From contig NC_063075.1 in the NCBI RefSeq assembly GCF_022605165.1, forward strand, positions 1-64,000: a DNA stretch of 64,000 bases. The letters run 5' to 3'. Position numbers and translations under genes: made by a program. Each line of letters opens with the position of its first letter. The first letter of the stretch is position 1. The notes under the pieces are model-generated. The model saw only the letters and a program-made list of their open reading frames with translations, was not told where the DNA came from and did not search any database. The stretch is from Purpureocillium takamizusanense. Taxonomy: Eukaryota; Ascomycota; Sordariomycetes; Hypocreales; Ophiocordycipitaceae. Shown piece by piece: positions 9,306-43,686 of the stretch.

Positions 9306-9636
9306 CGGGAACTACTAACATTATTCATTGCCCACATATCTCTATTTGCCCGCTTCGCGCACGATGTGACCCTAACAACTCAGCAGCCGAGAACCCTAGT
9401 AACGCGCAGGCCTTAATTGCTACTGCAGCTCGGTAGCCCGCGATGGCTTGAATTGCGTGCAGTTCTGCGGCTGGTGCTTTATTAATTGCGCGTAGTCTAT
9501 AGGCCATACTAGCCTGCTAGCAGGGGGCGTAGCGTAGCTACGGAAGGCCTGCTGTGCTAACATGACTGCGAGCCCCCGGTTTTTATGGGCGGGCGTGGGC
9601 AAGAAAAAATATGCTCCTGGGTAAGTAATAGCTCTC
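9306..9636. mobile_element. Candidate MITE with about 50-bp degenerate inverted ends
   Basis: The left end (around 9308-9352, containing CACATATCTCTATTTGCCC) and the right end (around 9588-9636, containing GGGCGTGGGCAAGAAAAAAT) are degenerate inverted repeats of each other. The same end sequence recurs at 35175-35310 and 41356-41412. The interior segment at about 9431-9455 is also similar to the reverse complement near 41283-41316. There is no ORF. The right edge coincides with the stop codon of the PKS gene, so the element sits in the PKS 3' UTR. No target duplication could be fixed because the ends are worn. Confidence 0.5.
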
Positions 9637-12600
9637 ATGCTAAGAAGCCCGACGCCTTCCAACTTGAGATAAATAGCCGAACTAAATCATCACTGACAGG
9701 AGGTAAATTCGCTAATGTCCGTGAGTGTTTTCTCGCTTTGGAAGTGGCTAGCAAGAGACCACCACAACTCATCCGTAAGAAATTCTCATCTAGGAAATCC
9801 ACCAACACATATGCGGGGTTGGCGCCTTGTGGGCGGTTGTCTTGGATTCGTGGCCAATCACGGACGCGCTGTAGCCACTGATCGAAAGGGATCACACCTG
9901 TCAGATCAGTCGGGATGTTGAGCGCGTCGGCCAATACGCCAACAGTGTCGCTCCAAACTTGCCTACATGGGTTCTCGATATGGTAGATGGGGTGTAGTAT
10001 CACGCCTTCTGGCTGTGTGAGGATGTCAACTAAGCTCCGAGCAACATCATCGGCGGGCGTCCAGCCCATGTTGCCTGGAAGACTTGGAAGTGCGCCCAGG
10101 GTCTGAGATGACTTGACTAGGAACGACACGTGCTCCATAGGATTCCAATGACCGTTCGTTGTGCTCCCAGCGATCTGACCTAGCCGCACTGCAGTCGCAC
10201 GAAAGTGGCCAGGATGCTGGAGGAGGGTCGATTCGAGCATCCGTTCACAGGTGTATTTTGCTTCACCGTAACCGGTTGGTAGCACGCTCTGAATTGGCAC
10301 GCTCTCCTCGGGTACGATTGCTTGTCCAGTCCAGAGGGGATAGTGGCCAACCGTGGCAATAGAGGAGACAAATTGAAATGTCACGCAGAGGTGCTGGTGG
10401 GTTGAGATGTCCCGAGCGAGATGAAGCATGTGTGCCATGATACGTAGCTGCGGCTCAAACTGCCTGAGCGTCCATTTGGAATGCATCAGCCAGGCGTTGT
10501 GCACTATATGGGTGACGTTGTTGAGGAGCCAACTATAGTCATCGTCCCGCAAACCAAGTTGTGTAGTTTGAGATAGATCCGATTCTAGGACTCGTAGTTT
10601 GGCTATCGCGGCTGTGGGGAGTTCAATGCCCTTGGTGCGTAAGGCTTGCATCTGTCGCTCCCTTGGTTTTTGCTTACCGGGACGGTTGAGGCAGACGACG
10701 TATCGCACGTCAGTGCGTAGTGAGGCCACCGCGACGAGGTGCGACCCTAAGCTTCCAGTCGCGCCTGTGATCAATATGCCCTTGGCGCTTGAACAGAGAG
10801 GAGGAGCGCTCCCAGTCGAATGTGAAGGCAGCTTGTTCAAGGTCCCGGCCAAGTGTTGGGTCAAGTTGCGGACGTACGTGGCGATGATGTTTTCCCGTGC
10901 TGCGTCTTGTGCTGAAAATTTGGCTTTACCTTGGTTGTAAGCGCTCAATGTTCGTTCTTTCCGCCTTAATTGGCATCTGTTATCGAGGAACGCATCGTAT
11001 CAGTATTAAGGTTGAAATTGCAAAGTAGAGAGGGAGAAGTTTAAACGACAACTGACTTTTATCGGCACATGTAGGCTACTTACCGGCCAGTGTCGCTGGC
11101 AACCGCTATTATCAACTTTTCTATGTCGCTCTCTGGCGTCTCGCCACCTGTCCAGTCCACATGACCATAACCAGCGGCCTTCAGGTCCGCCTCCCATCTC
11201 GACTCACGCGCCAAGGCATGTGGGCGCCCATCGTCGAATAGCCACCATCCCTCGAACAAGCCGAAGATTAGATCAACCCAGTAAGGCGCGCGCGTCATCT
11301 CTAGCATGAGTAGGAACCCGTCTGGGAGGAGCATCTTTCGCACATTGCTTGCGCTGCGCACGAGAGAGTGAGTGGCGTGAATAGCGTTGCTCGCGACGAC
11401 CAAGTGCTGCGTGCCAATCAAATCATCGTTAGGTTCCTTCTCGATGTCGTAAACCTGGAACGCCATCCATGGGAACCGCCTGCCCCAAGTCTTACGCGCG
11501 GTCGTTATAAAGGATGGGGCCAGATCAGTGAACGTGTACTTAACGGGTATCTGCAGTCGTGCAAGCAACGGTACAAGGCGGCGCGTTGTACCGCCGGTGC
11601 CGGCCCCCATTTCCAGGATGCGCAGTGGCTGGTCTGCGGTGATGCCTTCGAGGTTCGCCACCAGCCGTGTCATGAAGTACTCCATTTGTGAATACATGAC
11701 TTGATTCAGCGGCCACTCGGCGTAAAAGGCACTGGCAAGGTCGCTGCCTTGTTGACTACCAAATATGAGTTTCACGCCATCCGTCTCCCCAGAAAGTACC
11801 TGGGCGAGATTCGCACCTGCATGGTTGGTCAACTCGTTGGCTGGCAGCTGGTCGGGAAAGCGTGTGATGAGTTCCTGGTAGACAGCCTTGCTGTGTCGCG
11901 GTGGCAGTGGCACCGCAGTGCGAGTGATGACGTCCCCATCTATGTTGAAAATCTGGGTTTCTGTCTCCAACATGTCGTAAAGGTGTTTGACGAAGTGTGA
12001 GCAGCGCTTGTCGTATGATATGCGAGGCAGGCGCTGGCCTGGTCGGGCGTTGGCAAATCCGGCTCCAAGCTCCTCGAAGGCTTCGAGCACAAACGCTATC
12101 GTCAACTCGGTCTGCAGTGGTAGCACTTCAGCTACATAGTTCTCTTGTGCTAGCTCCTCAACGCACCGATCTGTAAGTTTCTTAGTCTCTGCGAAAGCAT
12201 GCATGACCAGCACTGATGATAGGCTGAGCTTGCTAGATTGCGAGTGTCCAGGTTTCTCTTTGTCTGTATCTGGTTCCGACGCTGGTGACGTCAGACTAGT
12301 TGTCGCCACGGCACTGTCTGAAGATGTTCCGGTGCTGTATCCATCACCATCGCTATTCAGATGTGAATGACCAGCGCCGGGCGTTGCGCCCCTCTCGATA
12401 TCTTTGCCCAGTGCGAGAGAGACACACCTAAGCAAGCCCGGCATATCGACAACAGCGAGGACCTCTCTGTCCGGAAGTTTTGTCTGAAAGGTACTCTCGA
12501 TTTCGCGAATGAGTTCCATACCAGTCAGAGAGTCAATTCCAAGGTCTGCCAGTTCACTCTCATCCTTAATTTCGATAACTTTCAATCCTGTTAGATCCGC

Positions 12601-15600
12601 AATCACGGCCTTAACTCTCAACTTCACATCGTCTGAAGCAGGATGTTGTTCTAACTGTGCCAATTTCAATTCAACAGCGGATTGGACGTCTGTTGGCAGG
12701 ATCCCCGTGGTGTCGCGTGTAGCTGGGGACGCATTGCCCCGGTCCAGAGTGATGCTATTGCTTGATTGAGGCTTGTATGGAAGGGAGGCCGATGCGCGCC
12801 TAATTGATGGTGTCTCAGCAAGGAACGCATCGTCACTGAGGCGCGCGAGCATTTTTTCCATGGACAGTTTCGGAACCCTGACATATGCAATCCCCAGAAT
12901 GACCTCCAACAGTTTTCCATTCACGGCGTCAAAGACGAAGACGTCGGTCAGTGACAGTCGATCAGACCGGCGATGGTGCCTAGCAAAGGCGTGGAACTCA
13001 TTTGCCTGCTTAGAGCATGGTGCTCGAATCCACTGCTCGATAGCATTTGCCAAGAAGACCTCTCCAGGGGACCGGTCCGTCAGGCAGTTCACCCATAAAC
13101 CGCCGAGCTGGCAGAACGTGTCGGCAAGATGAGCATCAAACTGGACAACGTTGTTGCGGTGCTGCTTCTGGCGGATAATGTACCCCGCGGTCTCATTACC
13201 AGACCCAGCTATCTTCTGCAGTCCACGGAACTCGTCACCATAATCCACGATGTCGGTAAACACGCGGTAGATGGTGCGATTGGTAAGCATCTCATCGACA
13301 TCGGAACGTTGCAGTAGATCCAACGCGCGATGATGTCCGATCAAACGTTCGAAATGGGCCAGCTGTTGTGTAGGCGACCGGCCATTCTGGTCTTTGAATA
13401 CAACGTTGCCTATTGTGTGCACCAGTCGACCCTGGGTCTTATTCTCAGGACTGAATACCTCAAACTGCCACCTGTTGTCGCCTTGAGTGTCGTAGTAGAT
13501 CTCGATATAAGTCATACGCGTCGAGTTCCCGCATAATGGTGAGTGATACTGGATGTCCTCAAGCTGCGGCTCAGACAAATTTTGATTCTCCGAACGAATC
13601 GTTCTAATGGCGTCAAGTACAAGGCCAATTTGCACGGTGGCGGGACAGATTGGTGCCGTTTGAATGGTTAGATGCCCTGACAGTACGTTCTTGTACTCTT
13701 CTGTCGTGGTATTAACACGGAATCGTGCCACTGTCTTGGCCTGACCGTCTTGGAATCCATCAAAAGTCAGAAAACCCCCAGATTGCTGATCCACCCCGGG
13801 AAACTTCGACTCCTCCTCAAGAGACGCTGGCACATTCTTCGGCCGTGTCTTCAGTGCCTTCCAGTGTCGTGCCTCTGGGTCAAACTGGTACGGCGGGAGA
13901 AGTAGGGGCTGGATGTTCCCCTCGAAAGATTTCTGCAACGCGTGGTGCGCCCAGTGTTGCACATGTAGGCCGGCCTCCCAAAGACTGATGACGTAGTTGG
14001 TCAGCCTATTCCAACCGTCATCACAATTAGAAAGGTCGATGCTCTGAAAGAGGTATTGTCCAGTACGCCGAAAACTGCCGAGTGCTCGGGACGCCATTGC
14101 TGTAATAGTCGAATTGGTACCTGCTTCGAGGAAAATGCAGCGTGATGCACCGTAATGTCGCGCAAGACGATCGATGGCGTGGTGGAAGTACACGGGGTTG
14201 CGCATGTGGTCAGCAACAAAACTAGCCCGCGGTGCTACTAGTGGCGCCTCTTCATGTTCCGTGGCTCGCTGAACAGGGATCACGGGGTTCTTGAGGATGA
14301 TTCCATGAGTAGTCTTCTCAAGGCGATCTAGGAGAGGGTCGACCAAGGCAGAGTGGAAAGCGTTGGTGACATTCAATCTTTTATACCTCGTAGTTTTGAT
14401 GGGATGTGCTTGAAGCTGTGTGACCAAAGCATCGATGGCTGCAGTTGGACCAGCGAGAGTGAAGCTGCGTGGCCCATTGTAGCAAGCTATGTTTGGGGGG
14501 TCGCCTGGATGCTTCTGCTTGGCTTCGATGAGCAGCTTCTCGACATCGCTCTGCTCGGCCTCAACGACCAGCATAGCTCCCTTGTCAGCTCCCCATGCAT
14601 CTCGTACCAAGGCTGCCCGTTTTGTGATTATCTTTAGGGCGTCATGTAAAGAGTAGGCTTCTGCAACACATAGTGCTGTAAGCTCGCCGAAGCTGTGGCC
14701 CACTAACGCAGCTGGTTGGATGCCGACGTCCATCCAGCAGCGGGCACAGGCGTACTGTGACGCAAAGAGTATTGTTTGCAGCTCCACTAGGTCGGAAATT
14801 GGGGCTTGTTGGAAGATGCCGGGAAAGATACTGTGGTATCCGATTGCCTGGACGACGGCATCAACGTGATCGAGATGCTTTCGTAGCAGGGCCACGTTGT
14901 TATATAACTGAGGGTCGAGGCCGACATATGTGGAAGTTTGTCCGCCGAAGCACAATACTGTTGTGGGCCTTCCCGGTAATGCCGACGACGAGGTTCCAGT
15001 CTCACCTTGTTCGACAGTGGCTAATGTTTGATTGAGCTCTTCGATTGAGCTTGCCGTGAAGATATATCTCCGTTCCAAGGTACGATTGCTCTGGCGAGCA
15101 AGGTTGAAAGAAATGTTCGCAAGACATGTTTCCTTAGCGTAGTGATTGATGAACTTTCGAAATGATTTTGCGAAGCGTCTCAAGCTCTTTTCGTCAATGA
15201 TACTGATCCAGAACGGGTATCTAGTCCCCGATGGAGGTCTGGTCACCGCCTGCGTAGACGGCGCTTGCAGAACGATCACGGAAGCGTTTGAGCCGGAAGC
15301 GCCGTAGTTGTTAACAAGCGCAGCGCGCAAGCGTGTATCCCACGGCTGCGCGTGAGTAGGTATGAACATATGATCGGCCGAAGATGCCCGTAAAGCTGGA
15401 TTCATTGTCATAAAACTCGCTTGCGGTGGAAGCATGGACTTGTGTAGCATAAGCAGGACTTTTATAAAGCTGATGATTCCTGACGTGCATTCCATATGGC
15501 CAACGAGACCCTTGACGGAGCTGACCATGAGTGGACTGTCTGGGCCGCGAGTCTCTCCGCCAAAGACCTGCCGAATGCTGTCAAATTCTACCGGATCGCC

Positions 15601-17788
15601 GACGTTGGTACCTGTGCCGTGCGCTTCGATGACCGAGATTTGTGAGGGTTTGACGTGTGCCTTGGCCGTCACAGTGTAGAATAGATCTGTCAGCGACGGT
15701 GCGTTCGGGACGAAGACCGGTGTGCAATTTTGACTCTGAGAAACGGCGGTTGCAGCAATGACACCGAAGATAGAGTCCCCGTCAGCGACTGCTCGATCCA
15801 TCTTCTTCAAAAATACGGCACCAACGCCTTCTCCCCGGCAATATCCATCAGCCCTACCGTCGAATGGCTTACATTGTCCGGTAGGGCTTAAGAATGAGCC
15901 CGACGCAAGATTCTCAAACCATGCGGTTGAAGTCATGATATGCGACCCGCCAGCGAGTGCCGAGCTACACTCGCCTGAAATAATCGAGTAGCATGCCTGA
16001 TGTAGAGCTACTAATGACGAGCTACAAGCCGTGTCGATAGTAAGTCCAGGCCCGGTCCAGCCGAAGTAATGCGATACCTTGCCAGCAATAAAGCCCTGTA
16101 GGTTGCCGGTGGCTGTAAAGGCATTTGCGTCATGACACGCCACGTTGTTCTCATAGTCGCTAAGGCATACTCCCACAAAGCAGCCGATCTTGGAATCGCG
16201 GTCCGTTTCGGACTTGTTGAAGTAACCGCTCTGTTCAACAGCTTGGTACGCCACCTGTAGCATATGCCGCTGCTGTGGATCCATAGTCTCGCTCTCTCTC
16301 GCGCTCTTCTTGAAGAAGCGATGGTCGAACTGATCGTGGCCCTCAATAAGGTTCGCAAACCACTTTCGCTTCTGGGGAGTGCGGAATGCTGAACTGTCCG
16401 GGAATCTCCTCGTATCTCCTAGCTTAATCTCCTCGTGCTGGGACTCGCCGTTCAATAATAAGTCCCAGAACTCATTTAAAGAGTTCGCCCCAGGTAATTT
16501 GCATGCCATACCCACAACTGCAATGTCGTTTGCTAACCAAGGGCGATCGGGCCGCCGGTCCTGCGCTACCCATCCGTCGACTTGTTCTGCCACACAGACC
16601 AAGTGCATTTTCGCCTTCAATGCCAGTGTTGGAGGCACACTGTACTCCGGCCCCATTGACAAGACTTGTAAGTCGTCTCCTTTGTCTCGTACAGCGGCAG
16701 AGAACGTATCAAGCCAACAAGGCGGCTCAAGAAGTATAAGTCGAAGCGCGTGAGAGTGCAATGGGCCGCTTTGCAATAGATCGCCGGTGCTACCAACAGC
16801 TCGAGAGGGAATCACCATCTCCGAAACATCAGGGAGCTGATATTCGACATGTGAATCGCAAAAGTCAATGAGCTGGCCGACGATGGCAGCGTTTGCTGGC
16901 GAGTGGAAGAATCCGCAAATGTCAACATCGGACACGTTCAGCCCTGTGGCTTTAAGCCTTCGTGTGAGATCACATGTGCGCTCCGCTGGAGCGGTGATGG
17001 TGCTCCGGTTCTCGTCATAGTGAACAGAAATATAGGCCTAGATGGCCGTTGTTAGTGAGACATTAGAGTACGTGGACCTGAGCGCGCCAGGACAGTGGTG
17101 GCCCTACCTGGTCAACATCGGTCAAAGTCCTCAACATGGCTTTGTGCTCTTCTGCCGAGCTCCAAGACACGCTCAACGACTTTGCCGGTGCTCCAACTAG
17201 CGTTGTATACTGGCTGTCAATGGCCAGGCCCACAAGCATACCAAGTCGCACAGCGGCAGCGCCGTATCTCCGGAAGTCGACCATGTTTCGAGCGCTTGCC
17301 ACAACAAAGGCGCTCAGTAAGCCCGTACATAACCCTAGTGTTTCGCTATTGCATTGAGATCCGGTACTGGGGGCACCTGCGCTGCCGAGTTTGGTGCCCA
17401 TCTGTCGAACAAATACGGCATATTCGGCTAGTTGAGTGATGACAACTAAGGGAACGAGTAGGACGCTCGGTAGCGGGTACGTTGTGTCTAACGGTTGATC
17501 TGTGAGAAACGCCTTGCTGAGGTCCGCCAGTTGCATATGTGCCAGAGCAGCCCTTGTCTGTAAGCCTGCAATGGCCGTAGCTGCCTCATGGACGCCATAC
17601 TGGAGGGACGTGATGACGTTGAGGAGCCAGCCGTTTTCGTCGATCTGTCGTACGAGGCCGCGTGCTCGCTCAACAGACGACGCGTTGAACGATACGGCAA
17701 GCGAGCCGAACAGAAAAACAGTTGGCCGCCCTGATGGGACAGGCTGGTCCTGCCGGTAGCCCGCCGTAGCCATGTCAGGTAGATACAT
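9635..17788 (-). CDS. Non-reducing PKS, methylorcinaldehyde-synthase type (SAT-KS-AT-PT-ACP-CMeT-R)
   Basis: Iterative type I PKS expected to make 3-methylorcinaldehyde, the aromatic precursor of tropolones, from one acetyl and three malonyl units with one SAM methylation and reductive release. Exons are 17788-17108, 17037-11084 and 10976-9635 (introns GTAGGG...CTAG and GTAAGT...ACAG; phases 0 and 2), giving 2,658 aa. Domains are SAT with GLCTG (C154); KS with DTACSSS (C565) and its two His residues (about 700 and 741); malonyl-AT GHSFGE (S1009); PT with His about 1349 and Asp about 1533; a single ACP, LGIDSL (S1730); C-methyltransferase with EMGAGTGG; and a C-terminal thioester reductase with GATGSLG (about 2282) and a YGEAK catalytic Tyr/Lys. 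There is no thioesterase. Length and order match TropA, MOS and AsPKS1. It is divergent from a TropB-type monooxygenase. A MITE abuts its stop codon. Confidence 0.95.
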
Positions 17789-18678
17789 GTAGGTTGACTG
17801 TCACACACAAGTGGCTCCTTTCCGAGTCGAAATATGTTGCCTTTAGCTTTTCGTTGACCTCGATTATCTTTGTGAAGATTAGCGGATTATAGCGGTGCGC
17901 TTTCATCTCGCTCCGCGGTCATGGCGCCAAATTACACCACACCCATTGCGCCGCATTCGGCGGCTTTCGCAGCTTCTTGTCGGCAACTAGTCGGACAATT
18001 TTCGGCCCCTACCAAGTGGCGGACAACAGGAAGGCGACGCTCGTTGCCAAAAGCCAATGCTTGCCATGTGTCGAACAAAGTTGAACTCCGTGTGCGGCCG
18101 GTGCTTAGTTGCGAGCTTCTTGATGATGCTGGCTTGTCGTTGCCGGGCTTCAGCGTCCACCGTCCAACCACGAGGGGGGCAGCTCCAAGGCCCCTGAAAA
18201 GTCGCCGGAACTATAAATACACCGAAGTAACTATCACATGCCACCAGTCAATTGGGTTGCAATTCACCCCCAATGATAATGGACATGGGTCATACATTCG
18301 TATAATTGTCATAGTAGGCTTTCATCGAACTCCTTCAATTGCACGCCATAGTGGGAAATTCTGCGTTTCTCGCGCTCTTTCCACGACTAGCGAGTGACAA
18401 CCCAAAGGCGCTGCCCCGGGCCTCAGGAGATTGTAGGAATATGCCGACAGACGTGGGGTTATTGCCCTGTTGCGGCGATGCGTTAGAGAAACTCCGAGAA
18501 CCCTGCCGATTTTCTGTAAAAGCACGTGCCTGGGCCACCGGACGGATAGCAGAGGCAAAACCGACTTCGTATATCCTGTGGCACAGCTACAGCCAGCAGA
18601 GAGTGACTGGTTCCCTGCCCTTCGGAATTCCTTGAGAACACTCTCCCAAATAAAGCACAGCTGACAGCAAATTTCACA
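17789..18678. promoter_or_regulatory. Divergent promoter between PKS and TropB-type monooxygenase
   Basis: These 890 bp separate the head-to-head start codons of the first two pathway enzymes. Short ORFs on both strands look like noise. The two cluster Zn2Cys6 regulators would be expected to act here, but I could not fix a site by eye. Confidence 0.6.
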
Positions 18679-20278
18679 ATGCCGGAAGACGATCGTGATT
18701 GGGCGAAGCCACATCTCGCCATTGTCGGCGGAGGAATTGTGGGAGTGATTCTCACCTTGGGGCTTCTGCGGCGGAAAGTGTCGGTGCGCTTGTATGAACA
18801 GTCGACTGGTTTCCAGGAGATTGGTGCAGGCATCGCCTTTTCGGCGTGCGCGCGCCGCTGCAGTACGTATAAAAAGCCTTGAACCTTCTTATTGATGGTG
18901 TAGCTTTACAACCACAGCCATTCAAAGTATTATTAAGGCTTGGCTGATAGGGCAACTGACGATGTATGGCAGTGGAACTGATAGATCCCTTGATAATTGA
19001 GGCACTGCAAAGTTGTGGCGCCGTGTCCGTGTCTGATGACACAAATGACCTGCGCTGGGTTGACGGCTATAACCAACCCTATGCTGATGACCCCCGTTAC
19101 GAGAGGCCGCTGGCTGAGATCAGCGGTAGTGGTTTCAGGGGCTGTCGGCGAGACCAGTTCCTCGAAGAGCTAGCTAAGCAGATTCCTGGTGGGGTGATTG
19201 AATTTCGCAAACGATGTCAGACCATAAGCCAGAAGCAAGGCGGACGAGTAGTGATCCAATTTTCGGACGGGTCTGTGGCCGACGTTGACGCTGGTACGTT
19301 AGACGAATGGATCTGAGGTCCGCCCGCTTGACCTAGCTGACAACGACCAAGTGATCGGCTGCGACGGTATTAAGTCACGAGTTCGCCAACAACTTTTTGG
19401 CGAGGATCATCCAGCATCATATCCACAGTACACTCACAAAGTGGCGTACAGAGGCCTCGTTCCGATGGACCTCGCTGTTGATGTGCTTGGGGAGTGGAAG
19501 GCGAATAATTTCCACCATCATGTCGGGCCTCATGCGCATCTAACACACTATCCAGTGGCCAACAAGTCAGCGCTGAACGTGGTCGCCTTTCTCTCGGACC
19601 CTGACCCGTGGCCTGATCGAAATACTATGGTGGCTGAGGGTACCCGCAACGAAGTGGAAAGCGGGCTACGAGACTGGAACCCAACCGTGCTAGGTTTAGT
19701 CCAACTTCTCCCGGAGAGACTGATTAAATGGGGTGTCTTCGACCTCGGCGAGTTCCCCGCGCCGCGGTATTACAATGGTCGAGTGTGTATAGCTGGCGAT
19801 GCCTCACATGCAAGCAGCCCACATCATGGTGCAGGTGCTTGTCTTGGTGTAAGTACAAGTTCTATTCATCCGTACATTGGCCTTGATAGCTTACGGCTAG
19901 GCGTACAACTAGGTTGAAGATGCTCTCTGCCTCACTACGCTGCTAGGCCATGTTCATGAAACGCTGGATAGTCCTCATCCTCGTCCAGATCTCACTATGT
20001 TGTTTGCACTAGAGGCGGCATTCGCGACGTTCGACGCGGTTCGCCGGCCTCGCAGCCAGTGGCTTGTGAATAGTAGTCGGCGGGTTTGCGCCTTGTACCA
20101 ACAAGAAGAGTGGGCAGATTCTAAGTGTTGGGTCAAGGCCGAGACGTGCTTCGAAGAAATCCGGGACCGTTCCTACGAGATCTGGCATTTTAACGTTGAC
20201 AGTATGCTGCAGGAGACACATATGGAGTTTAGAAGAAGATTGGCTGAGGAGGGTTGCAAGGTCAAGAAGCAGGAGTGA
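18679..20278 (+). CDS. FAD-dependent monooxygenase, TropB type (dearomatising)
   Basis: Predicted class A flavin monooxygenase that hydroxylates and dearomatises 3-methylorcinaldehyde, the step before ring expansion. Exons are 18679-18862, 18973-19293, 19337-19848 and 19913-20278, giving 460 aa; the 43-bp second intron is unusually short. Motifs are the Rossmann GGGIVG near residue 17, the DG motif ([10 protein letters not shown]), and the GD motif ([18 protein letters not shown]). Splicing across the first intron creates an ATG codon (A|TG) that gives RCMELIDP. The C-terminal stretch [16 protein letters not shown] is, as I recall it, nearly the same as in TropB. It is divergent from the PKS and followed by an SDR on the same strand. 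The alternative, a salicylate-hydroxylase-like enzyme of another pathway, is unlikely given the neighbours. Confidence 0.9.
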
Positions 20279-20543
20279 ATTCTTGGGGGTAGGCCTATCG
20301 GCGAATAAATCGAATGCCAGAACTCGCCGGGCCAAAGACCTATTGCGTCCAATACCGCGACTGATTTCTTGCATTTAGTCATCTATAAAAGTAAACCGAC
20401 ATTCCGTGAGCAAGCAATCAACAGGGATTCCGCGGTGGCGGCAGAAATTGAGTACGCGTCTGTTATAGAACGAAGTCCACGTCCCGTCCTGCATATCTAG
20501 ATTGTCTTTACCCATATCACTGAATGATATATTGACTTTCGAC

Positions 20544-30522: not shown

Positions 30523-32621
30523 ATGACTATTGTCCCTGCAAGTTTAGAATCCTCTTGGGATATGACGATATGCTCCTCGGTGGCGCTGGGAGTCTTTTTC
30601 CATCAGGTGGTCCGACAGTTGGAAGTCGACAGTCGCGGATGGACGTTGGTGTGTATTTGCATGGTCATGCTTGTATCTCCCATCATGGCCAACGTTTGGC
30701 TCGGCAATGGTGTCACAATCGCACTCTGGCGTACCGCGTCGGCCGACACGTCCTTCCTCGCCGGTCTGTTTGGTAGCATGCTGTTATACAGGGCGTTCTT
30801 CCATCGACTTAGGCGGTTCCCTGGGCCGTTTGCCGCGCGTTTGTCCAACTTTTACCAGTATGTAGTGCTTAAAACCTTGTCCATTCTAGAGTTGAAGAGC
30901 CAGTGATTCGCAGCGATATCAGCCTACTGCTTCATCGCTCTTAATCATTCGAAAATGACACACCTATAAATACCGACCCACGTACTGATTGTGAATACCA
31001 TAGCTTTGCCATCACAGCACGCACCAACATGCAGCATCATCTTTTCATACGGAAGCTGCATGGGCAATATGGCGATTTTGTGCGAACTGGACCACGCGAG
31101 CTGTCGATACGTCGTGCCTCAGCCATAAATCTGATATATGGCCCTTCTTCTACCTGCGGTAAGGCTACGTGGTACGATCAAAACTCCGACAACCCCGACC
31201 ATGTCTCCGTCGAAAATATTCGCGACCTGGGGAAACACAGAACCAGGCGAAAGGCTTGGGACAATGGGCTTGGCTTTAGAGGCACGTTCCTACTCAAGTA
31301 CACAATTGCCTTTCCCATGACTGATGTCGCTGACGGAGGCACTGCTGCAAGCCCTCGCCGCTTATGAGCCTCGCATAACAGCGAAATTGGATTTGTTACT
31401 GGCCCGAATGGACGAGGGGAAGTCGATGGACATGACTCAGCTCGGAATGTTTTTTTCTTTTGATGTTATGGGAGACATTGGCTTCTCAAGTGACTTTCGC
31501 ATGCTTGAGTGAGTGGTAACGCACATGTTTCCTTCCGATCTCCCCCTATTTCCACAACCTCTTCGTAGTCTTCTAGACATGCATGTAGCCACTAAGTACG
31601 CCACAGAACTGGCCAGGAGCATCGCGCTATCCGCAGCCTTCACGCAGCCATGGACGTCGCAGGCCTAATGACTACTGTTCCGTGGCTGATGAATATGCTG
31701 CGAAAGGTCCCTGGGGCCACTGGGGTATTCGAACGATTCGCTCAATGGTGTTACGATCAACTTGAGGAGAAGCGAGAGGCACTGAAAGTCGCTAATAAGG
31801 GCCAACAGCCACGTGATGTGATTTCATGGCTCATCAAGTCTGAGGATGAAGCATCTGGTATGGCTGGTTCAACTTCAGCTGCGATCCAGGAGGATGCTCG
31901 AGTCTTGATCATCGCTGGCAGGTTAGTATCTCTCCCAATTCTTGGACTGGGGATGGGAAACTAAACTGCACTGAAGCGATACCGCAGCCAGCGCAATCAC
32001 TAACACGTAAGTACTGCTCGAAGATGTTATCAGCTTGTGTGTCCTTCCTCGGTCTACTTTGACTAATTCTCCAGACTTTACTTTCTGGCCAAGTATCCCG
32101 CTGTCTGCGAAAAGCTTCAGCAGTTGCTGAAGGTTATATTCCCCGCCGGAGACACCGACTGGAATTACGCTAAGGTCAAGGCAATCCCGTACCTGGACTA
32201 CATTATCAACGAGACTCTGCGACTTCGTCCCGCGGCTCCGATTGGTTTCCTGCGAGAAACTCCGCCGCAGGGCTTGCAAGTTGATGATGTCTTCATACCT
32301 GGAGGAACCATCGTCTCCGTTCCGACTTGGGCAATTCACAGGGATTCTCGCAATTGGGAAAGACCGGATGATTTCGTGCCGGAGCGGTGGGAGAAAATGT
32401 CGACCAACACGGCGCCGTACATAGCTTTCCAACGTGGCCCATTTTCCTGCGCGGGCAAGAATCTTGCCATCATGGAGCTTCGCATGGTCATTAGCCGTAT
32501 TGTTCTCAGGTATAGGATAGCCTTTGCTCCAGGAGAGGATGGGGAGGCTTTTCAGTCTGGAGCCAAGGAGAAGTTGACTCTATGGCTTCCTCCACTACGC
32601 ATGGTTTTCACTCGGAGATAG
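30523..32621 (+). CDS. Cytochrome P450 of the tropolone-sesquiterpenoid cluster
   Basis: Membrane-anchored haem monooxygenase. Exons are 30523-30857, 31004-31281, 31352-31508, 31607-31921, 31977-32006 and 32075-32621, giving 553 aa with all phases matching. The N-terminus has two or three hydrophobic helices, then the proline hinge FPGPFAAR. The I-helix AGSDTA is assembled across an intron. The K-helix ETLRLRP, PERW, and the haem loop FQRGPFSCAG complete the family signature. The second intron starts with GC instead of GT (AG|GCACGT...CAAG). Possible substrates are the tropolone methyl/aldehyde (TropD/AsR2-like role) or humulene; the sequence does not decide. It lies between the terpene cyclase and the Diels-Alderase candidate. 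An in-frame Met 35 codons upstream is less likely the start. Confidence 0.9.
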
Positions 32622-34080
32622 GTCATTTTCATCCTCAGTCACCACTTTCACATGGTTTGCCTAGGACTGCGTCGCCGCGGCGTCCAATCTATCAGACAAT
32701 GAGTAGCACTATTTACACCGTTACGTTTCTCTATTTCCACACATCTAAGACCTGCCAAGCCTGGCTTACAGTGCAACACCAACCAAACAACCCTCCCCCC
32801 CACCCGGGGGGGGCTACGGGGCTACGGGGTTCGGACTGGGGGCTACAGCAGCGTTCGAGGCCAGCACGCTACGCGCAACCAAAGGCATCTCAGGCTCCTG
32901 GGCTGCGCCGCAGCTTTTAAATGCCCGCAGGCTACGCGCAATTAAACCCAACGGAAGCTACGAACTACAGCCTGAAGTCGGTGGGCTACGTGCGGCGGCG
33001 TGTAAGTGGCACTATAGGCCGCTATGAGGCAGGGGTTGTTATTATTGGCTGTAGCGGGCTTGGCAGGCTTCGATATGTAAAAATAGAAAAACGCATAGCT
33101 ATGAATAGCAACATTTGATCTGGGCTTGACTGTTCTTGCATGTAATGAAGTGCTAGGACAGAACGCACACACGCGAGCCCAGGCAGAGAATTGGGGCACG
33201 CACGTGACGCCCCCGAACCATGGGGTATTAGAGCCCGTCTAGCTAGCGAACTGGAAGCTTGAACCTACAAACTTCAGTCTTGCAATACAATCACCCCTAT
33301 GGTCGTCTGATCCTACCATTGCTACTCTTACCTGACTACCAACCTGATACCTGGCGAGTGAGCCATGACATTACAAGACAGAATATAAACTCAAGCCACG
33401 GTCCTTATCTATAAGAAACTCGAAACATATCCCTTAGCAGATAGCCTAGGGCCGTCAACCCTTTCCTGATGTCGAATGTCTATACTGTCGCTTTTCTTCA
33501 TTAATATTCCAAGGCATTTTGCTCGAGCACAAATAGCCACCAATGTTCTCGCCGAAAGATTGCTTGAAAAGCTCCATATCCCGCCGGTCACTTACGTACG
33601 AGTAGAGTCCATTACAAACGTACCGGTCCTGGCCGTGGTATGGCCGTCGGGACGAGGTAGGTGAACCGGACACATGCAGAAGTGCCGCACGGTCGCGCTA
33701 TGTACATGCATGACAATTTATTTCGCACATTTGGCCGAGGGAATGACCACAGGTCTAACTTCATGTCAGCTGTCAGCAGAACCACTACTACCCACATACG
33801 TACTCCACGACTTATTCACCGGGCCAGAGCGCGCATGACAGACAAAACCCGAGCACCAATCGGACATTTCATAGCCACTAAAAGTCGCCGATAAGCCCAG
33901 CGTCGTAATGAGGGCAACTGTCAGGGGTACCCTCGGTGAATCCTGAGCATCGACGCTAGAACGTGCTAAAATCTAGGTCATAGCTTAGTATTAAAGTCGG
34001 TAGTGTACTCGTCCCCGGTGCCGCTGGTTAAAGCACAAAACCTGTTCAAAATTTAACCATTTAAGGCGCAGAAGCTCGCA
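32622..34080. other. Repeat-bearing intergenic region
   Basis: Contains a C/G-run hairpin around 32792-32815, a degenerate GCTACG-rich stretch (32810-33060) that may be repeat-derived, the LTR-like element listed separately, and about 700 bp of unique sequence that should include the promoter of the next gene. No credible ORF. Confidence 0.5.
33141..33375. mobile_element. Solo-LTR-like element, copy 1
   Basis: A 235-bp unit with TGTAATG at the left and CATTACA at the right, the TG...CA inverted ends typical of LTRs. About 225 bp is nearly identical to 45448-45673 in the same orientation. Many of the differences are C/T changes. I could not see a clear 5-bp target duplication. The Pol-encoding interior is absent. 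Confidence 0.6.
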
Positions 34081-35166
34081 ATGAAGATTTTCGCATCACT
34101 TTTTGCCTTGGCTGCTGTGCCGCACGCGCTGGGGGGGCCTGCTATAAATACGGGCAAGGTTCCGCTGCCGGAGCGACTGTTGCACCATTTCCCGAACGGA
34201 ACCTGGGCGGAGAACATCTCCGTGCGTCCCAATGGCAACCTCCTGATCACTTTGTCTACGCCTACTGGATCGGTGATGCAGGTGAAGGAGCCATGGACTG
34301 CCAACCCTGTGGTGGAGGAAGTCTTCAACTTCGATCAATGGGTCGACAGGCTCATTGGTATAGGCGAAACTACTCGAGATACGTATGTTGTTGTTGGTTC
34401 ACGTTTTTACTCCCCGGACGCCATTGCATCTCCAGTTGAGACTACCTTTTGTGCCATGGAGCTCGACTTCAGCAAGGACCCAAACAAGCCCAAGGCACGC
34501 CTGATCGCTCGGCTCCCCGAGGCCTACCTCCTCCAGAGTGTTGCTGCCCTCCCCTGGGACCGCACCACCGTGCTTATTTCGGACCAGTATCTTCTGAAGC
34601 CGAGGTACAACCAAAGCGACTGGACGCCAAGCCCCGGCCAGGTCTGGCGGCTCAATACCGTTACGGGAAAATACAGCCTTGTCATGGCCAACTATCCCGA
34701 GATGACTTCCATCGGCGCCAAAGGTCCAGATGTTGGCATCAACGGCATCAAAATTCGAGGTAACTGGTTCTACTGGGGTAATACAGACAACAGCTATGTC
34801 TACCGGCTGAAGATCGACAAGAAAGGTGCCCCCGTGCCTCCCGGCAAACCACAGGTGGTCACGCACTTTGACACCTTCTGGAACGACTTCACATTTGGTC
34901 CCGAAGACGAGGACATCTTATGGTCGGCGGGTTGGAACCAGGTTGTGGCAGTCTCAAGCGCGGGTAAGGTTGTTGTTGTCGATGGCGTCGGTACAAGTAA
35001 CAACTTGACCTTCCCAGGACCAACTGCCACAGGCTTCGGCAGACACCATGAGGATAGGGATATTCTTTATGTTACGGGGAATTTATACTCTATCCCCGAT
35101 GTACCTATCGACGGCAAGATCGGTGGCTGGATACGAGCGATAAACACCACCGGCTTTCGATTCTAG
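34081..35166 (+). CDS. Candidate hetero-Diels-Alderase, AsR5/EupF/PycR1 type (secreted beta-propeller)
   Basis: Single-exon 361-aa protein with a clear signal peptide (about 1-18) and several possible N-glycosylation sites (NGT, NIS, NTT). The remainder is rich in beta-strand repeats (for example DRTTVLISDQYL, GQVWRLNTVTGKYSLV, GINGIKIRGNWFYWGNTD) fitting a six-bladed SMP-30/gluconolactonase-like propeller. Proteins of this type beside AsR6-like synthases catalyse the inverse-electron-demand hetero-Diels-Alder reaction between a tropolone o-quinone methide and (hydroxy)humulene, forming the dihydropyran link. The start is fixed by the signal peptide. The alternative is a plain lactonase-like protein, but both the fold and the neighbours fit a cyclase. 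Confidence 0.8.
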   Translation: MKIFASLFALAAVPHALGGPAINTGKVPLPERLLHHFPNGTWAENISVRPNGNLLITLSTPTGSVMQVKEPWTANPVVEEVFNFDQWVDRLIGIGETTRDTYVVVGSRFYSPDAIASPVETTFCAMELDFSKDPNKPKARLIARLPEAYLLQSVAALPWDRTTVLISDQYLLKPRYNQSDWTPSPGQVWRLNTVTGKYSLVMANYPEMTSIGAKGPDVGINGIKIRGNWFYWGNTDNSYVYRLKIDKKGAPVPPGKPQVVTHFDTFWNDFTFGPEDEDILWSAGWNQVVAVSSAGKVVVVDGVGTSNNLTFPGPTATGFGRHHEDRDILYVTGNLYSIPDVPIDGKIGGWIRAINTTGFRF

Positions 35167-35174
35167 GCCTGTAG

Positions 35175-35868: not shown

Positions 35869-38800
35869 TCACATTCTTCTCTTCCCCTTTGGCATGCGAG
35901 CCACCCAGTATAACGTCAATGCTGCTAATATGTTGAAGATAATGAACACCCACATGATAGCAAAGTTGCGCCATCTGTCCCCGTAATGGGAACCGATTCC
36001 ATCCAAGAAGACGTTTGTCTCCTTAATTTTGCAGTAGCTGCAGTCGCTTGTAGCGTACGGGTCGAGAAGATAACCACCCCGCCTCGAAATATAGTCGGCC
36101 ATATAGTCGCCGCATGTGCGGTTATCTGGAGGACTGATCTGAATCCATTCATTGTTGGCGCACGTCACGTCAACGTTGGCAAGACCTGTTGACAGTATAG
36201 CGGAAACCCAATACGAAAGTGGCGAAACACGGTACAAGAAAATCCAAAACCGAGGCATGGTCTCTGGCGAAGCCAATACACCACAGAAAAAGAAAATCAA
36301 GACAAAAAGAAAGTTGGCCGTGTTGCCTCCTGAGTCAGCCGTATCACCAAAGGCAACGCACATATGGGCAAACGTGCAAATGAACAGAAGCAATTGCCAG
36401 AATAGGAGCCACATCAGCCCCGCGCGCTCTGCGCCCTGTCCAGCGGCATCGGCATTTTTATAGAAGCCCACTGGGTAGTAGATCAGCGCCCACATAAAGA
36501 GTGACGCGATAGTATTCCAGGGGATCTCGGCCACAATCTGACTGAGCATAAAGACTTTCCATGAGTAAGTTTTGGCTGGCCGTTCACGAACCTCGTATAG
36601 CGATCGCTGTGCAACAAAATGGGGCATCTGTTGCTCTGCAAGTTGCCCCAAGATGCTGCACATCTCGAAAATGGCGAACATCTGATTTTGCAGTCCCTGA
36701 ATGGTTAAAGGTGCATTGAGAAACACAAGTCCGATGAATAAAGTGCTGGAGATGCAGAGGCTGAGCTTGGAGTAGATATAAGATGGTGTCCGCCAGTGTT
36801 GTTGCATCACGCGCTGCATAACGACCAGAAATTGTTGCCCAAATGGCGCAGCGAACTCACGGTACGACGATGGATTGTTCTTCTCATGCGAAGGCCGATT
36901 GTCACCTAAGGCCCTGAGACGCCCCAGTTCGCTCTGAACCGACTGGTATTCTGGGCTGGAACGCCACGTCTGATGCCAGTCGATATCGGAAGAGCTGCCT
37001 GGGGCAGCACCGACTGTTTCAAGCATCCACTCGGCCGGGTTGGTGCCAGGTTTGCAGGGATGTGAGCCATGGCGCTCGAAGTAGTCAGTGAGGATTTTGG
37101 AGTCTTCTCCAATATCGCCTATGGAATAGAGTTAGCATATAATCTAGCTTCTATGACGGCCTGAAATGTAGCCACGAAAACCAATCCCGGAACAGAAAGA
37201 AGCTAACCAAAGTATACTGTACGACCGCCCTCAGCAAGTAGGAGCAACCGGTCGAACCGTTGAAATAATATTGCCGACGGCTGATGGATAGTACAGAGTA
37301 TAGACTGGCCTGCTTTAGACAGCTTCTCCAATAAGTCCAGAATGGCCCAGCTGGTTTGAGAATCCAGGCCAGAAGTAGGCTCATCGACGAAGAGCAGAAA
37401 TGGCGGTTTGGCGGCCAGTTCTACCCCAATAGTCAAACGCTTGCGTTGTTCGACATTGAGGCCTTCACCAAGCACGCCAACAACGGCATCGGCATACTCC
37501 CCCATATCCAGTATCTTGATGACTTCATCCACATATGCCAGCTTTTCTTTTCTTGGAATACTTGACGGCTGACGAAGGACTGCAGAAAAATTGAGGGCCT
37601 ATCCAAACTAGTCAGAATGTATGACTGGGCGCGGAACAATACCAGTAGAGACGGCAATTATCTGAAGAGCAGAGTGTTGTGTTCTTACCTCACGAACAGT
37701 AGTAGTTTCCAAATGGAGATCAAGCTGTTGGGCATAGCCTGTCTTTCTCTGGAAACTCTCATCACGCAGCTTCCCATCGATCAAGATCTCGCCCGTAACA
37801 ACGCCCACGCCATAACGACGGTCAGCCAAACAGTCGAGGAGACTGGTCTTTCCAGCCCCGGAAACACCCATCAGTGCGGTGAGAGTGCCAGGCTTGACCC
37901 AGCCGTCCACATTTTCAAGGATACGTCGAGGTTTCCCCTTGATCTTGATGTCGTGGCACACGTTGTTCCAGTGGAAAACGCTGCTGGAGCCCTCGAAGCC
38001 TCCTCTTCCGCTGGCTGGATACTTGGACAGTCTCCTAACCCGTGAGCCAGGTGCGCTGATTGATTTCTCAACATCTCTGCCGCCGTTGGCCGAGGACTGT
38101 GGTTTAGAACCTTGGCGGAAGACAGGAACTTCGCCCTTGGACTTCTTGGCCCGGATGTATTCTGCGGCGATGAAGTAGACGGCATGGTTGAAAATCGCCA
38201 TGGCAATTATAATACCAACGTTTCGCCACTTGTGCCCATGGTGGTATTTGAATGCTGAGGTGATATGGTCGTCCCCATTAACATAGGTTTGCCCAGGCAC
38301 GGCCCCTATAGCGGCGCAAGCTACGCTTCCTGAGGTGGTATTGGCGTAGTCAGGGATATACGTGGAGCATGAGAAGTTGCGGTTGTGGAACTCATTAACC
38401 ATGAGAGACTCATAGCCATATGCTACCGGATTGACATAATTTAGCCAACGACACCAGCCAAGCATGTAGTCCTCGGGCACAATGAATCCTGTAAAGATGA
38501 GCAGGCAAAGCAGTAGGATTGATGCCGGAACCATAGCCTGTTGTTCCGATCGTGATAACGAGGCTCTAGACACTAAGTTAATAGTGTTCTTATAGCAGAT
38601 AGGGGAACGTACATAGATCGAAAAATCCCAGACATCGCCATAATGATAAGGAACATAGTGAAGAGATAGAAAAAGAAGGGGCCGGGTTGGCGGTTTAGGT
38701 TAGTCATGAAGTAGAATACCAAGTTGAAAGAAACCATGTTTAGGATCTTTAACGGCAGATCCACCAGGACGGAGGCATATGACTCGGCTGAAGGATGATA

Positions 38801-40596
38801 AAAGGCGTAGCGAGACTGCTTCTCCACAATTGGTCTTTGAGCATATAGTGTCAGGATCTCTAGCATAGAGGACAGCGCATTGAATAAAATCGCAATGAAG
38901 AGGACAACGGAGCGGCCGTAGAAGGAAGTCGTGCTTATGTCCATGTTGTAATACAAGGACGATATAATGAGTGCCATAATCGTGTTCCCAATCATCATGC
39001 CGACGGGCATTGAGGGATCGGCTTTAAGCCTCCAATATCCTCTCCAAAAACAAAGCAGGACCTGTTGACTATAGGTGAGGATGTAAGGCGAGTTAACACG
39101 TTGTCCTTTGGCTTGATATGCCGTTTTGAGCCGTCGAAAGGTCGTGGCGTCCTGGCCGTCGATGGCATGTTGCGCCTTATATTCCTCGATTTCGACCTGC
39201 AATGCCTCATATTCAGGGCTTCTTCGCCAAGCATGGGCAAATTCCTCAGCAGTTTGCGGTGGATTGCAACCCTGGCGAATTCTACGCTCCGTTGGGAACG
39301 TCATGGATGTGAGGAAGTCAGGACTTGTCTGACGCGCCGGGCATTCAAAGCCAAGGTTGATGAAATATTCCTTTGCCCTGTTCGCTGGTCCAAAGTATAT
39401 CTGATGGCCCTCGTATATGATCGTTGTCTTATCAAATACGTCGTAAGCGCTCTGTGGTGCCTGATACATCGACACAGCGCATGTGTGGCCAAACAGGTCG
39501 GACTGCAGCCTAAGTGTTTTGCAGAATTGAATGGCGTTCGCCGAGTCAAGACCACGAGTCGAACTGAGCTGATTAGTTTCAATTGCTGCAATAACAGGGC
39601 ATGTTACTCACTTGTCCCAGCACTGGAATGGGGCGTTGGCCAGGGTTGCCTCTGCGATGGTGACACGCTTGCGCTCTCCACCCGAAACACCTCGTACATA
39701 CTCGTCTCCGACTCTGGTATGGATGGTGTGACTGACACCATACATGGCCATGACGACATCTCGAAGGCCATCACAGTATCTGCGAGGGTGTTGTTAGCTA
39801 ATACCCCTGGTAGCACGGACGTATCAACATACTGGGTGCGACTGATGCCATGCGGCAGCTCCCGTGGGCAGCGTGCCCGCGATGCGAATGCCAGTGTCTC
39901 GCCAACTGTCAACATGGGAAAGTGAACGTCGAGCTCGGCGGTGTAAATAACGTCACCCCGGTGCGCGCTGTGCATCTCCTTTGCGGATATGCCATGATAG
40001 TTGAAGTAGGAATCGGCATTGACGTAGACACCGTTGGCATCGCCCGATATAGTCTTGAGGAAGGTCGAGCAACCGGAACCAGGTGGGCCAAGGACAGCAC
40101 ATAGTTCTCCAGGGCGGATTAATCCGTCGAATTGATGCAGAATGTCGATCCGAGTGCGGCCTATGGTGCTGGAGTAGAGTTGGCAAGCCATGCGTGGAAG
40201 AGACAACCAGATGTTTACGACATCCTTCTGAAAGTCTATGGGCGTGCCGTAGCCGAAGACGTTGACATTCTGAAAGCACAGGCCGATCTGACGGTATCTC
40301 TGGCCGCTCTCATTGGTCATTCTGGCAACATTCCTGGCCCAATCCCGCGCGCTGAACTTCTCACCGCGTGGGTTCAGTGGCGAGTTGAGATCATCTCCCC
40401 CAAAGATGGTATTTTGTTTCGGGTCGTTGGCAACGGAATCATCATTTTGGGAGATGCCTTGCACCAGATTGTGAAGGGCGGAATGGCGGCTCTTGAAAGG
40501 GGTCTTTGACTGAGCTGTAGTTTTGTCCTCGCGCACGGCGTGAAACCCTTCTGGCGATGCCACAACATCTCCAAGTCCGTCAACTGCGGCTGACAT
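35869..40596 (-). CDS. Full-size PDR-type ABC transporter (ABCG, NBD-TMD twice)
   Basis: Plasma-membrane efflux pump, the likely exporter or self-resistance component. Exons are 40596-39833, 39779-39612, 39563-38613, 38565-37689, 37598-37208 and 37118-35869; phases all agree, giving 1,466 aa, normal for the family. NBD1 has the PDR-typical Walker A with Cys instead of Lys (GPPGSGCST), signature VSGGERKR, and the SANAIQF segment. TMD1 carries six hydrophobic helices. NBD2 has Walker [10 protein letters not shown], a degenerate signature (LNVEQRKR) and Walker [17 protein letters not shown]2 has the large extracellular Cys-rich loop (CANNEW...CGDYM...CSYC) before the last helix. The alternation of degenerate and canonical sites is that of Pdr5/CDR pumps. 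It is divergent from the AflR-type regulator. Confidence 0.93.
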
Positions 40597-42265: not shown

Positions 42266-43686
42266 ATGTTTCCCGCAAGTTCTGAGTATAGTGATCAAGA
42301 ACGCCCAGCCGGGAATGAGGCGGAGGCAAGCATGAAAACAGGTCGGCTGCGGTCCGCATGTGACTCCTGTCATAACGCCAAGATCAGATGCTCCGGGGGA
42401 AATCCATGCTCGACCTGTCAACGCTCTCAGACCCGGTGCGCCTATAGCCCCAGTACAAGGCTCGGCCGTCCAAAGGGTACCAAGAATAAACGAAGCCGCG
42501 TGCAGGAGAGGACGAAGGCTGGGCGTCCAGACAGTTGCAACGTCGCGACCAGAAGCAACGTGGAATCACAGCATGGCACCGGAGCTGAGCGAGAGATATA
42601 TGAGCAGCAGCAACAGCAGTCCGATTCCGTCGGGCTGGATTTCGACCTCGACCCCGACGTCGATTTTGACTCTGGCTTTGGCACAAACGATGGGGCCGAC
42701 AGCCACCATAACCTTCTTCTTGACATGAATGTGGGTTTCACTGACCCCACTGGAGTTGCCAGTGTGCACACGAGCCCGGATGCCAGCATGCGAACACACT
42801 TCACTACGGTAGGCCAATTGCTTCAGGGTCCTGGGTTCTGTACGGGCTGACGCCGGCTTTTGCTACACGACACTAGTCATCCAACGGATTCGTGGAGATC
42901 TCTAGTCCACGCCAAAACTTGCCATCGGATGTATCTGAAGCATTCAGGCATGATGGCGGGTACGGAACAGGCTCAGTCAGCCCATCGAGAGATGACTACA
43001 GTTTGAGCAGCCCTGGGTTAAACCTCCTCTCTGGACATAGCCTAGGTGATCCCGGCCCATTTACAGCCCTAGGTTCGCCTAGATGCTCATGTCTTCAGCA
43101 ACTAGTCCAGCTGCATTGTCGGCTAGGGGACTTGCAATACTCCCAGGTCCACGGCTTCTCCGTCGACACCGTGTTAGGCGGGCTCCAGCTGGCACAAGGG
43201 CCCTGGAATTGTTTCATGCAATGCAGCGTTTGTCAAAAGGGAGACAATCACAAAGAGGCTCCACTTTTGTTCGCCATGAGCATTCGCACATTGCTCTGCT
43301 CAGTGCAGAAGCTAAATGGAGCTCCCAGCGCAGGCAATAACTCCATGGATGTTGCTCTGTCCTTGGGCACCTTCGAGTTGACAGGTGATATGAAGTCCGA
43401 AATAATTGGCCTGGCTCTCCGAAAAGCCCTACAAACTATGAAGTCCGCCATGCTCTACCTGTGGGCCCGTGCCGGTCGACCAAGCCCATTGGAAATTGGG
43501 GAGTCAAACACCAGCGATGCTACTACGCAGGAAGGGTATACCAGGAATCAGGATGGCGGCCAAGAGAAAGTACAGCGAACACGATCTTTACTGACGCTGG
43601 CCCCGACGACACCAGGACCAGAGAATGTAGCATCTCTCCTCAACACGCTACAGTATACCATCCAAGCAATTGAGCACAAGCACTGA
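42266..43686 (+). CDS. AflR-type Zn2Cys6 transcription factor
   Basis: Predicted cluster-specific regulator. Exons 42266-42808 and 42877-43686 (68-bp intron, phase 0) give 450 aa. The zinc cluster CDSCHNAKIRC then CSTCQRSQTRC has AflR spacing (2-6-5-2-6) and is followed by a basic linker (GRPKGTKNKRSR), as in AflR. The C-terminal half fits the AflR family domain: CSCLQQLVQLHCRLGDL, then VDTVLGGLQLAQGPWNCFMQC, VCQKGDN and the FAMSIRTLL helix. Acidic Asp-rich and Gln-rich segments in the middle may activate transcription. It marks the apparent right border of the core cluster, just before the AT-rich island. Confidence 0.9.

Follow-up and report, generated by a model that had tools for sequence, protein, structure and literature searches.

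What does the fungus Purpureocillium takamizusanense make from the genes that lie beside one of its telomeres? The analysis covered the 64 kb with which contig C8 begins, in a genome of 35,574,015 bases in 14 contigs; these 64 kb as a whole are referred to as the window. It holds a subtelomeric biosynthetic gene cluster which, judged by its predicted proteins, probably makes a pycnidione-type tropolone sesquiterpenoid. Pycnidione is one of the known cytotoxic fungal compounds in which a seven-membered-ring polyketide is joined to humulene. An earlier note on this DNA had described a subtelomeric tropolone-sesquiterpenoid cluster at 9,635–43,686. No material slip was found in its gene inventory, and its coordinates are correct: the stop codon of a polyketide synthase (PKS) falls at 9,635 and that of a second regulator at 43,686. 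The contig opens with a telomere repeat, in agreement with the subtelomeric placement.

A tropolone-sesquiterpenoid gene set

The genes of the cluster were modelled as follows, using a small ab initio gene finder and manual building from reading frames and homologs.

9635–17788, minus strand: probable methylorcinaldehyde-synthase-type non-reducing PKS, SAT-KS-AT-PT-ACP-CMeT-R (Pfam, joined exons, motifs)
18679–20278, plus strand: TropB-like FAD (flavin adenine dinucleotide) monooxygenase, for oxidative dearomatisation; 4 exons, 455 amino acids (aa) (TropB homology, stop-free splice model)
20544–21557, plus strand: short-chain dehydrogenase/reductase (SDR); 3 exons, 278 aa (PF00106, E 1.1e-30; TGANTGLG and YRASK)
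22311–23434, plus strand: TropC-like non-haem iron ring-expanding dioxygenase; 3 exons, 334 aa (SpoC/TropC homology, stop-free model)
24145–26673, plus strand: Zn2Cys6 transcription factor 1; open two-exon model (PF00172; PF04082)
27408–28550, minus strand: AsR6-type humulene synthase; single exon, 380 aa (AsR6 homology; L285 and K289 positions kept)
30523–32621, plus strand: cytochrome P450 (P450); 6 exons, 553 aa (ETLRL and FQRGPFSCAG motifs; stop-free model)
34081–35166, plus strand: EupfF/PycR1-type hetero-Diels-Alderase; single exon, 361 aa (EupfF/PycR1 homology)
35869–40596, minus strand: PDR-type ABC transporter; 5 exons, about 1,471 aa (ABC2_membrane, E 6.5e-42; ab initio model)
42266–43686, plus strand: Zn2Cys6 transcription factor 2; two-exon model, 450 aa (PF00172, E 1.3e-09)

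Homology, stop-free models, conserved key residues and gene linkage were established for this locus. In PDB searches, the 380-aa protein matched the humulene synthase AsR6 (E 1.7e-143), and the 361-aa protein matched EupfF (E 4.1e-152) and PycR1 (E 1.2e-140), AsR5 not being among its PDB matches. The best PDB match of the TropB-like protein, searched as an earlier 460-aa splice form, was TropB (E 9.8e-146); that of the TropC-like protein, searched as a 339-aa form, was SpoC (E 1.3e-132), which is also labelled a ring expansion oxygenase, with TropC second (E 4.4e-122). Because these E-values are so small, chance is excluded, and as sequence comparisons the PDB matches are decisive for the AsR6-, EupfF/PycR1-, TropB- and SpoC/TropC-like enzymes. 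The AsR6 and EupF likenesses and the TropB and TropC types had all been proposed in the earlier note, and all withstood these searches. A lack of AsR6 and AsR5/EupF homology in the 380-aa and 361-aa proteins was one of the two findings that the note would have accepted as refutation, and the searches showed strong homology instead.

Key residues were also retained. The synthase carries K at the position of AsR6 K289, which we take to be essential, and L at that of L285. R206 and Y239 of TropB are conserved in the TropB-like protein as R202 and Y235; both are key binding-site residues, and Y239 promotes R stereochemistry (PMC10789314; papers are cited here for particular passages). TropB- and TropC-type oxygenases, an AsR6-type synthase with K289 and an EupfF/PycR1-type Diels-Alderase are features of fungal tropolone-sesquiterpenoid clusters, and each was found. 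At residue level, the L at position 285 of the synthase is a pycnidione-type feature.

The three PKS exons (17108–17788, or starting from 17773; 11084–17037; 9635–10964) joined to 2,649 or 2,654 aa, given two possible starts, without an internal stop. Pfam recognized SAT, KS, AT, ACP, C-methyltransferase (CMeT) and reductive release (R) domains, and gave a weak PT/DH match below the cut-off. Motifs were read in KS (DTACSS), ACP (GIDSL) and R (TGATGSLG and YGEAK). In domain order, the feature compared here, the enzyme fits the TropA/MOS type, which is non-reducing, carries a CMeT and releases its product reductively.

The roles of the SDR, P450, pump and regulators were assigned by family and context. 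The 553-aa protein is the sole P450 of the cluster, as the earlier note had it, and the pump and two regulators that it listed were borne out by an ABC2 membrane domain in the former and a Zn2Cys6 domain in each of the latter. The PF04082 match in transcription factor 1 scored 22.1 bits, just under the cut-off of 23. None of the core gene models contains an internal stop. They are weakest at a GAG acceptor, which the first intron of the TropC-like model requires, and at a GC donor in the P450 model. With intron 2 taken as 43 nt in the TropB-like gene and 44 nt in the TropC-like gene, small insertions remained relative to the PDB homologs; introns of 58 and 59 nt were therefore adopted.

From these genes we infer the reactions, their order, the product and the expression of the cluster. 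The PKS would make 3-methylorcinaldehyde, which the TropB homolog would dearomatise and the TropC homolog would ring-expand to stipitaldehyde. The SDR, proposed by analogy with PycL2 to be a stipitaldehyde reductase, would then reduce the aldehyde to give stipitol. On the terpene side, the AsR6-type synthase would supply 2E,6E,9E-humulene, and the P450 is proposed, by analogy with PycR5 and Eup2R6, to be the hydroxylase acting at C-4 of humulene. It was placed before the Diels-Alderase because EupF/EupfF acts on humulenol, to which it adds two tropolone units (PMC8902786). The EupfF/PycR1-type enzyme would dehydrate stipitol to a quinone methide and add this once or twice to humulene. Export would fall to the PDR pump, and regulation of the cluster to the two Zn2Cys6 proteins.

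The humulene synthase and the class of the product

Compounds of this group are divided by oxidative versus reductive handling of stipitaldehyde and by the use of 2E,6E,9E-humulene (EEE) versus 2Z,6E,9E-humulene (ZEE) (PMC9503010). In AsR6, the change L285M gave over 85% 2Z-humulene (PMC11250809). The window synthase was aligned with 53 of its 63 matches, those of at least 300 aa (the 10 shorter ones were dropped), and a tree of the 54 proteins was built. At the position of AsR6 285, 14 of these carry L, 37 M, 2 T and 1 V. Four rows could be matched to a species or strain with a known product, and all four agree, L going with EEE and M with ZEE: the synthases of S. schorii (xenovulene) and Durotheca rogersii have L, and those of strain CF-150626 (eupenifeldin) and A. 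hancockii have M. We take D. rogersii to be synonymous with Theissenia rogersii, for which strains may differ. Pycnidione has been reported from T. rogersii (PMC9630273), and D. rogersii is a probable pycnidione source; CF-150626 is a eupenifeldin strain (PMC11693898), and A. hancockii is a source of eupenifeldin (PMC5381763).

In the tree, the window synthase grouped with a paralog from its own genome on contig C5 (100/99), and the pair was sister to the D. rogersii protein (100/97), outside the CF-150626 clade, away from A. hancockii and not in the AsR6 clade. Rows with L were scattered over several places, and the residue therefore probably changed more than once; it is a guide and not a proof. 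With this reservation, we predict that the synthase makes 2E,6E,9E-humulene and that the product is of the pycnidione type, which belongs to the reductive branch and would be a 6S,7S dihydropyran-fused humulene tropolone. The earlier note had named the pycnidione/epolone/eupenifeldin class, with the seven-membered ring kept; the evidence agrees with this and allows it to be narrowed through L285.

Several observations weigh against a pycnidione-type product. The Diels-Alderase scored 510 bits with EupfF versus 472 with PycR1. The nearest named relative of the P450 is that of CF-150626, so that on sequence similarity this enzyme does not separate pyc from eup, and no row labelled as a pyc synthase or pyc P450 was noticed among the matches. 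Two L rows (P0014 and P0015) sit within the CF-150626 clade, so that L does not by itself point to this class. The SDR had been called 'extra' in the earlier note, but one is expected, each of the eup, eup2 and pyc clusters having its own (PMC9503010); on published comparison it is not diagnostic either, since the xenovulene cluster has the SDR asL5, which is not required (PMC5958101). No ring-contraction enzyme was assigned, the TropB homolog being the only flavin monooxygenase (FMO) seen within 9.6–43.7 kb.

Some of these points would suit a eupenifeldin-type cluster, in which the same enzymes work with a synthase that makes 2Z,6E,9E-humulene and the product has a syn eastern ring junction. 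The Diels-Alderase is closer to EupfF than to PycR1, and the P450 is 57% identical over 98% to that of CF-150626. The synthase, 60% identical over 92% to its CF-150626 homolog, argues the other way: it has L instead of M at the 285 position and lies outside the CF-150626 clade, away from A. hancockii. A eupenifeldin-type product is distinctly unlikely on this evidence, and the pycnidione type is preferred.

In support of the preferred reading, among the seven best-scoring P450 matches (P0184–P0190), five are on a contig of the same size as that carrying the AsR6-like match of the species. In Diaporthe batatas, the locus tags of the P450 and the synthase are 423 apart, and the two are not neighbours. 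P0187 is the CF-150626 protein, and for the Neoarthrinium match no synthase of that species was seen in the synthase match list.

A candidate regulatory motif

Eight promoter stretches were scanned with 80 gapped patterns and all 8-mers. AAGTCGCC was present in five of the eight, and 20 shuffles reached at most four. This motif was widened post hoc to AAGTCGSCKR, chosen on the same sequences, so that the following statistics flatter it. Eight matches occur in the window, where 0.97 are expected, and 0 of 100 shuffles reached eight. Seven of them fall between genes of the cluster, spread over five intergenic regions, and its genes contain none; the remaining match is at 52,737. In 150 kb of other sequence, a further four matches were found (Fisher p = 1.7e-7). 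The candidate sites (18199–33891, defined post hoc) are:

18199, between the PKS and TropB-like genes
22085, before the TropC-like gene
24043, before transcription factor 1
28715 (minus strand), 29101 and 29806, between the synthase and the P450
33882, before the Diels-Alderase

The motif was missing between the pump and the second regulator, between the TropB-like gene and the SDR, and before the monooxygenase at 46 kb. The 11-mer AAGTCGSCGAT occurs 56 times genome-wide, three of them at this locus, versus 0.05 expected here. The shorter AAGTCGSC is mildly enriched in the window (9 versus 4.2 expected; 2 of 100 shuffles reached 9), and the core TCGNCGA is common elsewhere, with 57 occurrences in 80 kb of C5 and 30 in 40 kb of contig C2. 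AAGTCGSCKR is a candidate site for binding by one of the cluster's regulators and, should the motif prove genuine, would show which genes the regulon comprises and where it ends.

A stranded second humulene synthase

The paralog on C5 (2757777–2758856) is an AsR6-type synthase of 360 aa, 78% identical over 354 residues to the cluster copy. It is intact, one exon open to a TGA stop, and its frame is 100% identical to P. takamizusanense JDV02_006409. It also has L at the 285 position. Divergence between the two was 0.13 at non-synonymous sites (dN) and 0.83–1.04 at synonymous sites (dS; three methods), indicating that the pair has been under purifying selection. Guanine-plus-cytosine (GC) content at third positions was 0.73 in the C5 gene versus 0.55 in the window gene.

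The surroundings of the C5 gene are of another kind. Ten nearby frames were scanned, of which two gave no match. Five were housekeeping-like (Phe-tRNA synthetase, an Rpb3-type protein, a SOF1-like WD40 protein, 6-phosphofructo-2-kinase and a Neugrin/mitochondrial ribosomal protein), and three were otherwise identified (an O-methyltransferase, a short-chain dehydrogenase about 15 kb off and a DUF3632 protein). No further cluster protein matched at E 1e-4 in the 80 kb around the synthase. A tie to the cluster through AAGTCGSCKR was looked for and rejected, there being no site in the 1.5 kb upstream.

The genome was also searched for another complete cluster, and none was found; TropB, TropC and the Diels-Alderase have no close second copy. 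Own-genome searches, in which the best candidates only were scored, gave next matches of 33% identity for the Diels-Alderase, 33% for TropB (earlier 460-aa form as query) and 30–39% over pieces for TropC (earlier 339-aa query). For the PKS, the next match was 36% identical and covered query residues 225–1389 of 1,985. C2:1456158–1457320, 65% identical in one piece, was considered as the remnant of another PKS of this type, a reading then discarded: C2:1454800–1457564 is the methyltransferase-to-R end of another C-methylating PKS, whose pieces are 41–56% identical, and no KS or AT piece matched near it in the 40 kb of C2 examined.

Given the lack of a close second copy of TropB, TropC and the Diels-Alderase, the C5 enzyme could act in trans for the cluster or produce humulene in free form. 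In its fullest form this would be a pathway split over two contigs, with the C5 synthase feeding the single Diels-Alderase in trans (or opening another branch, to free humulene) and regulated independently of AAGTCGSCKR, and an undescribed pycnidione-type compound as product; we consider so elaborate an arrangement unlikely. Through this duplication, two members of one non-canonical terpene cyclase family, the first cluster-bound and the second stranded, can be compared as they occur in nature.

Setting and edges of the cluster

Two features frame the cluster.

1–138, contig start: telomere repeat, (CTAACC)23, 23 copies of CTAACC read in the sequence
43700–46100, no strand: AT-rich sequence containing dispersed repeats, each about 230 bp long; treated as the cluster's right edge

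The GC content of the window is 0.516. Measured in 3-kb steps it stays at 0.50–0.54 up to about 70 kb and is at least 0.60 from there to 94 kb; the cluster is located in a subtelomeric low-GC composition island that begins at the telomere and extends to about 70 kb. At 44–46 kb, GC drops to 0.40, TpA/ApT is 1.5–1.6 and (CpA+TpG)/(ApC+GpT) is about 0.6. This bias looks like that of repeat-induced point mutation, by index thresholds that we assume to be the appropriate ones. The repeat of about 230 bp has at least 60 matching stretches genome-wide, counting the 43.7–46.1 kb stretch itself, and one copy (92%) lies inside the cluster at 33141–33366.

Beyond the repeat block, at 46129–47547, is an FAD monooxygenase from a fungal family with 4,173 matches. 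Its position, 2.4 kb past the cluster, bears on a xenovulene-type alternative, in which the P450 would be a TropD/AsR2-type enzyme making stipitacetal and ring contraction would follow. L at 285 is shared with AsR6, and asL5 shows that an SDR is possible in such a cluster. The repeat-rich stretch, however, divides this monooxygenase from the cluster, AAGTCGSCKR is absent from the gap, and no AsL4 or AsL6 label appeared in the best 120 matches of that large family. Nor was an AsR2 or TropD label seen in the best 120 of 554 P450 matches, where names are shortened and mostly generic, and the synthase is not in the AsR6 clade. The earlier statement that a ring-contracting monooxygenase pair is lacking nearby agrees with the finding of none between 9.6 and 43.7 kb. 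A xenovulene-type product is most improbable.

In the protein database searches, the synthase and the P450 (27408–28550 and 30523–32621) did not come up as the window's own proteins, whereas the 46-kb monooxygenase did; the two genes may have been overlooked or wrongly modelled in public annotation. Their absence would also fit a cluster that is intact but silent, or that yields a truncated product, through a gene broken in a way invisible in the models or through silencing of the island. The subtelomeric low-GC setting points in this direction, as does the need for two unusual splice sites, the GAG acceptor of the TropC-like model and the GC donor of one GC-AG intron in the P450 model. The core models are nevertheless open end to end, and the low dN (0.13) against dS (0.8–1.0) between the synthase and its paralog indicates purifying selection on the pair. 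A silent cluster or a truncated product is very unlikely, and a pycnidione-type cluster remains the favoured reading.

Neighbouring genes

To the right, within 59691–62452, is a terpene synthase of the TRI5 family (PF06330), whose best match in the PDB is SydA and in which no obvious first Asp-rich motif was seen by eye. Its neighbour, a protein of 386 aa, has a DIDDT motif and shows weak similarity (E 2.9e-5 and 0.0018) to drimenol synthase, in its cyclase part, and to AstC; it matched no Pfam family, and the genome yielded no other copy of it. Another P450, at 53698–55477 (PF00067 in the frame 53698–54537), perhaps belongs with these terpene genes. On the telomere side, pieces at 3019–7817 resemble a GH18 chitinase and LysM repeats (putative, by eye).

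Comparison with known systems

The gene set is of a kind already known, in a host for which no report of such a system was found in the literature searched, which includes few subscription papers. In the passages concerned, PMC8902786 mentions 'Purpureocillium' in a leucinostatin reference, and PMC13028671 has the species epithet without the word 'tropolone'. If the assignment is true, a fungus that is pathogenic to insects, and congeneric with the biocontrol agent Purpureocillium lilacinum, has a telomere-anchored tropolone-sesquiterpenoid cluster, and the sharp prediction of EEE-humulene and a pycnidione-class product is addressable by a single enzyme assay.

The aspks1/AsR cluster for xenovulene A in Sarocladium schorii (PMC5958101) shares with the window the PKS, TropB and TropC types, an AsR6-type synthase with L285, the Diels-Alderase, an ABC transporter, an SDR and a P450. 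It differs in its AsL4/AsL6 pair, of which none was found inside the window cluster, and in the clade of AsR6, which is not that of the window synthase.

The eup and eup2 clusters for eupenifeldin, in Phoma sp. and Phaeosphaeriaceae sp. CF-150626, have the same functions as the window cluster; the window P450 and synthase are 57% identical over 98% and 60% over 92% to those of CF-150626, and EupfF matches the Diels-Alderase at E 4.1e-152. Their synthases have M, and the window synthase L, at the position that sets E or Z geometry, and they include an EupR4/Eup2R5-type FMO that was not found inside the window cluster.

The pyc cluster for pycnidione in Leptobacillium sp. CF-236968 (PMC9503010, PMC11693898) has a PycR4-type FMO, none being found in the window at 9.6–43.7 kb, and the window Diels-Alderase is somewhat closer to EupfF than to PycR1. 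PycR1 is nonetheless a strong homolog of that enzyme, and the functions listed for the pyc cluster (PKS, FMO, non-haem iron dioxygenase, SDR, humulene synthase, Diels-Alderase, C-4 P450 and transporter) recur, as predicted from sequence, in the window cluster.

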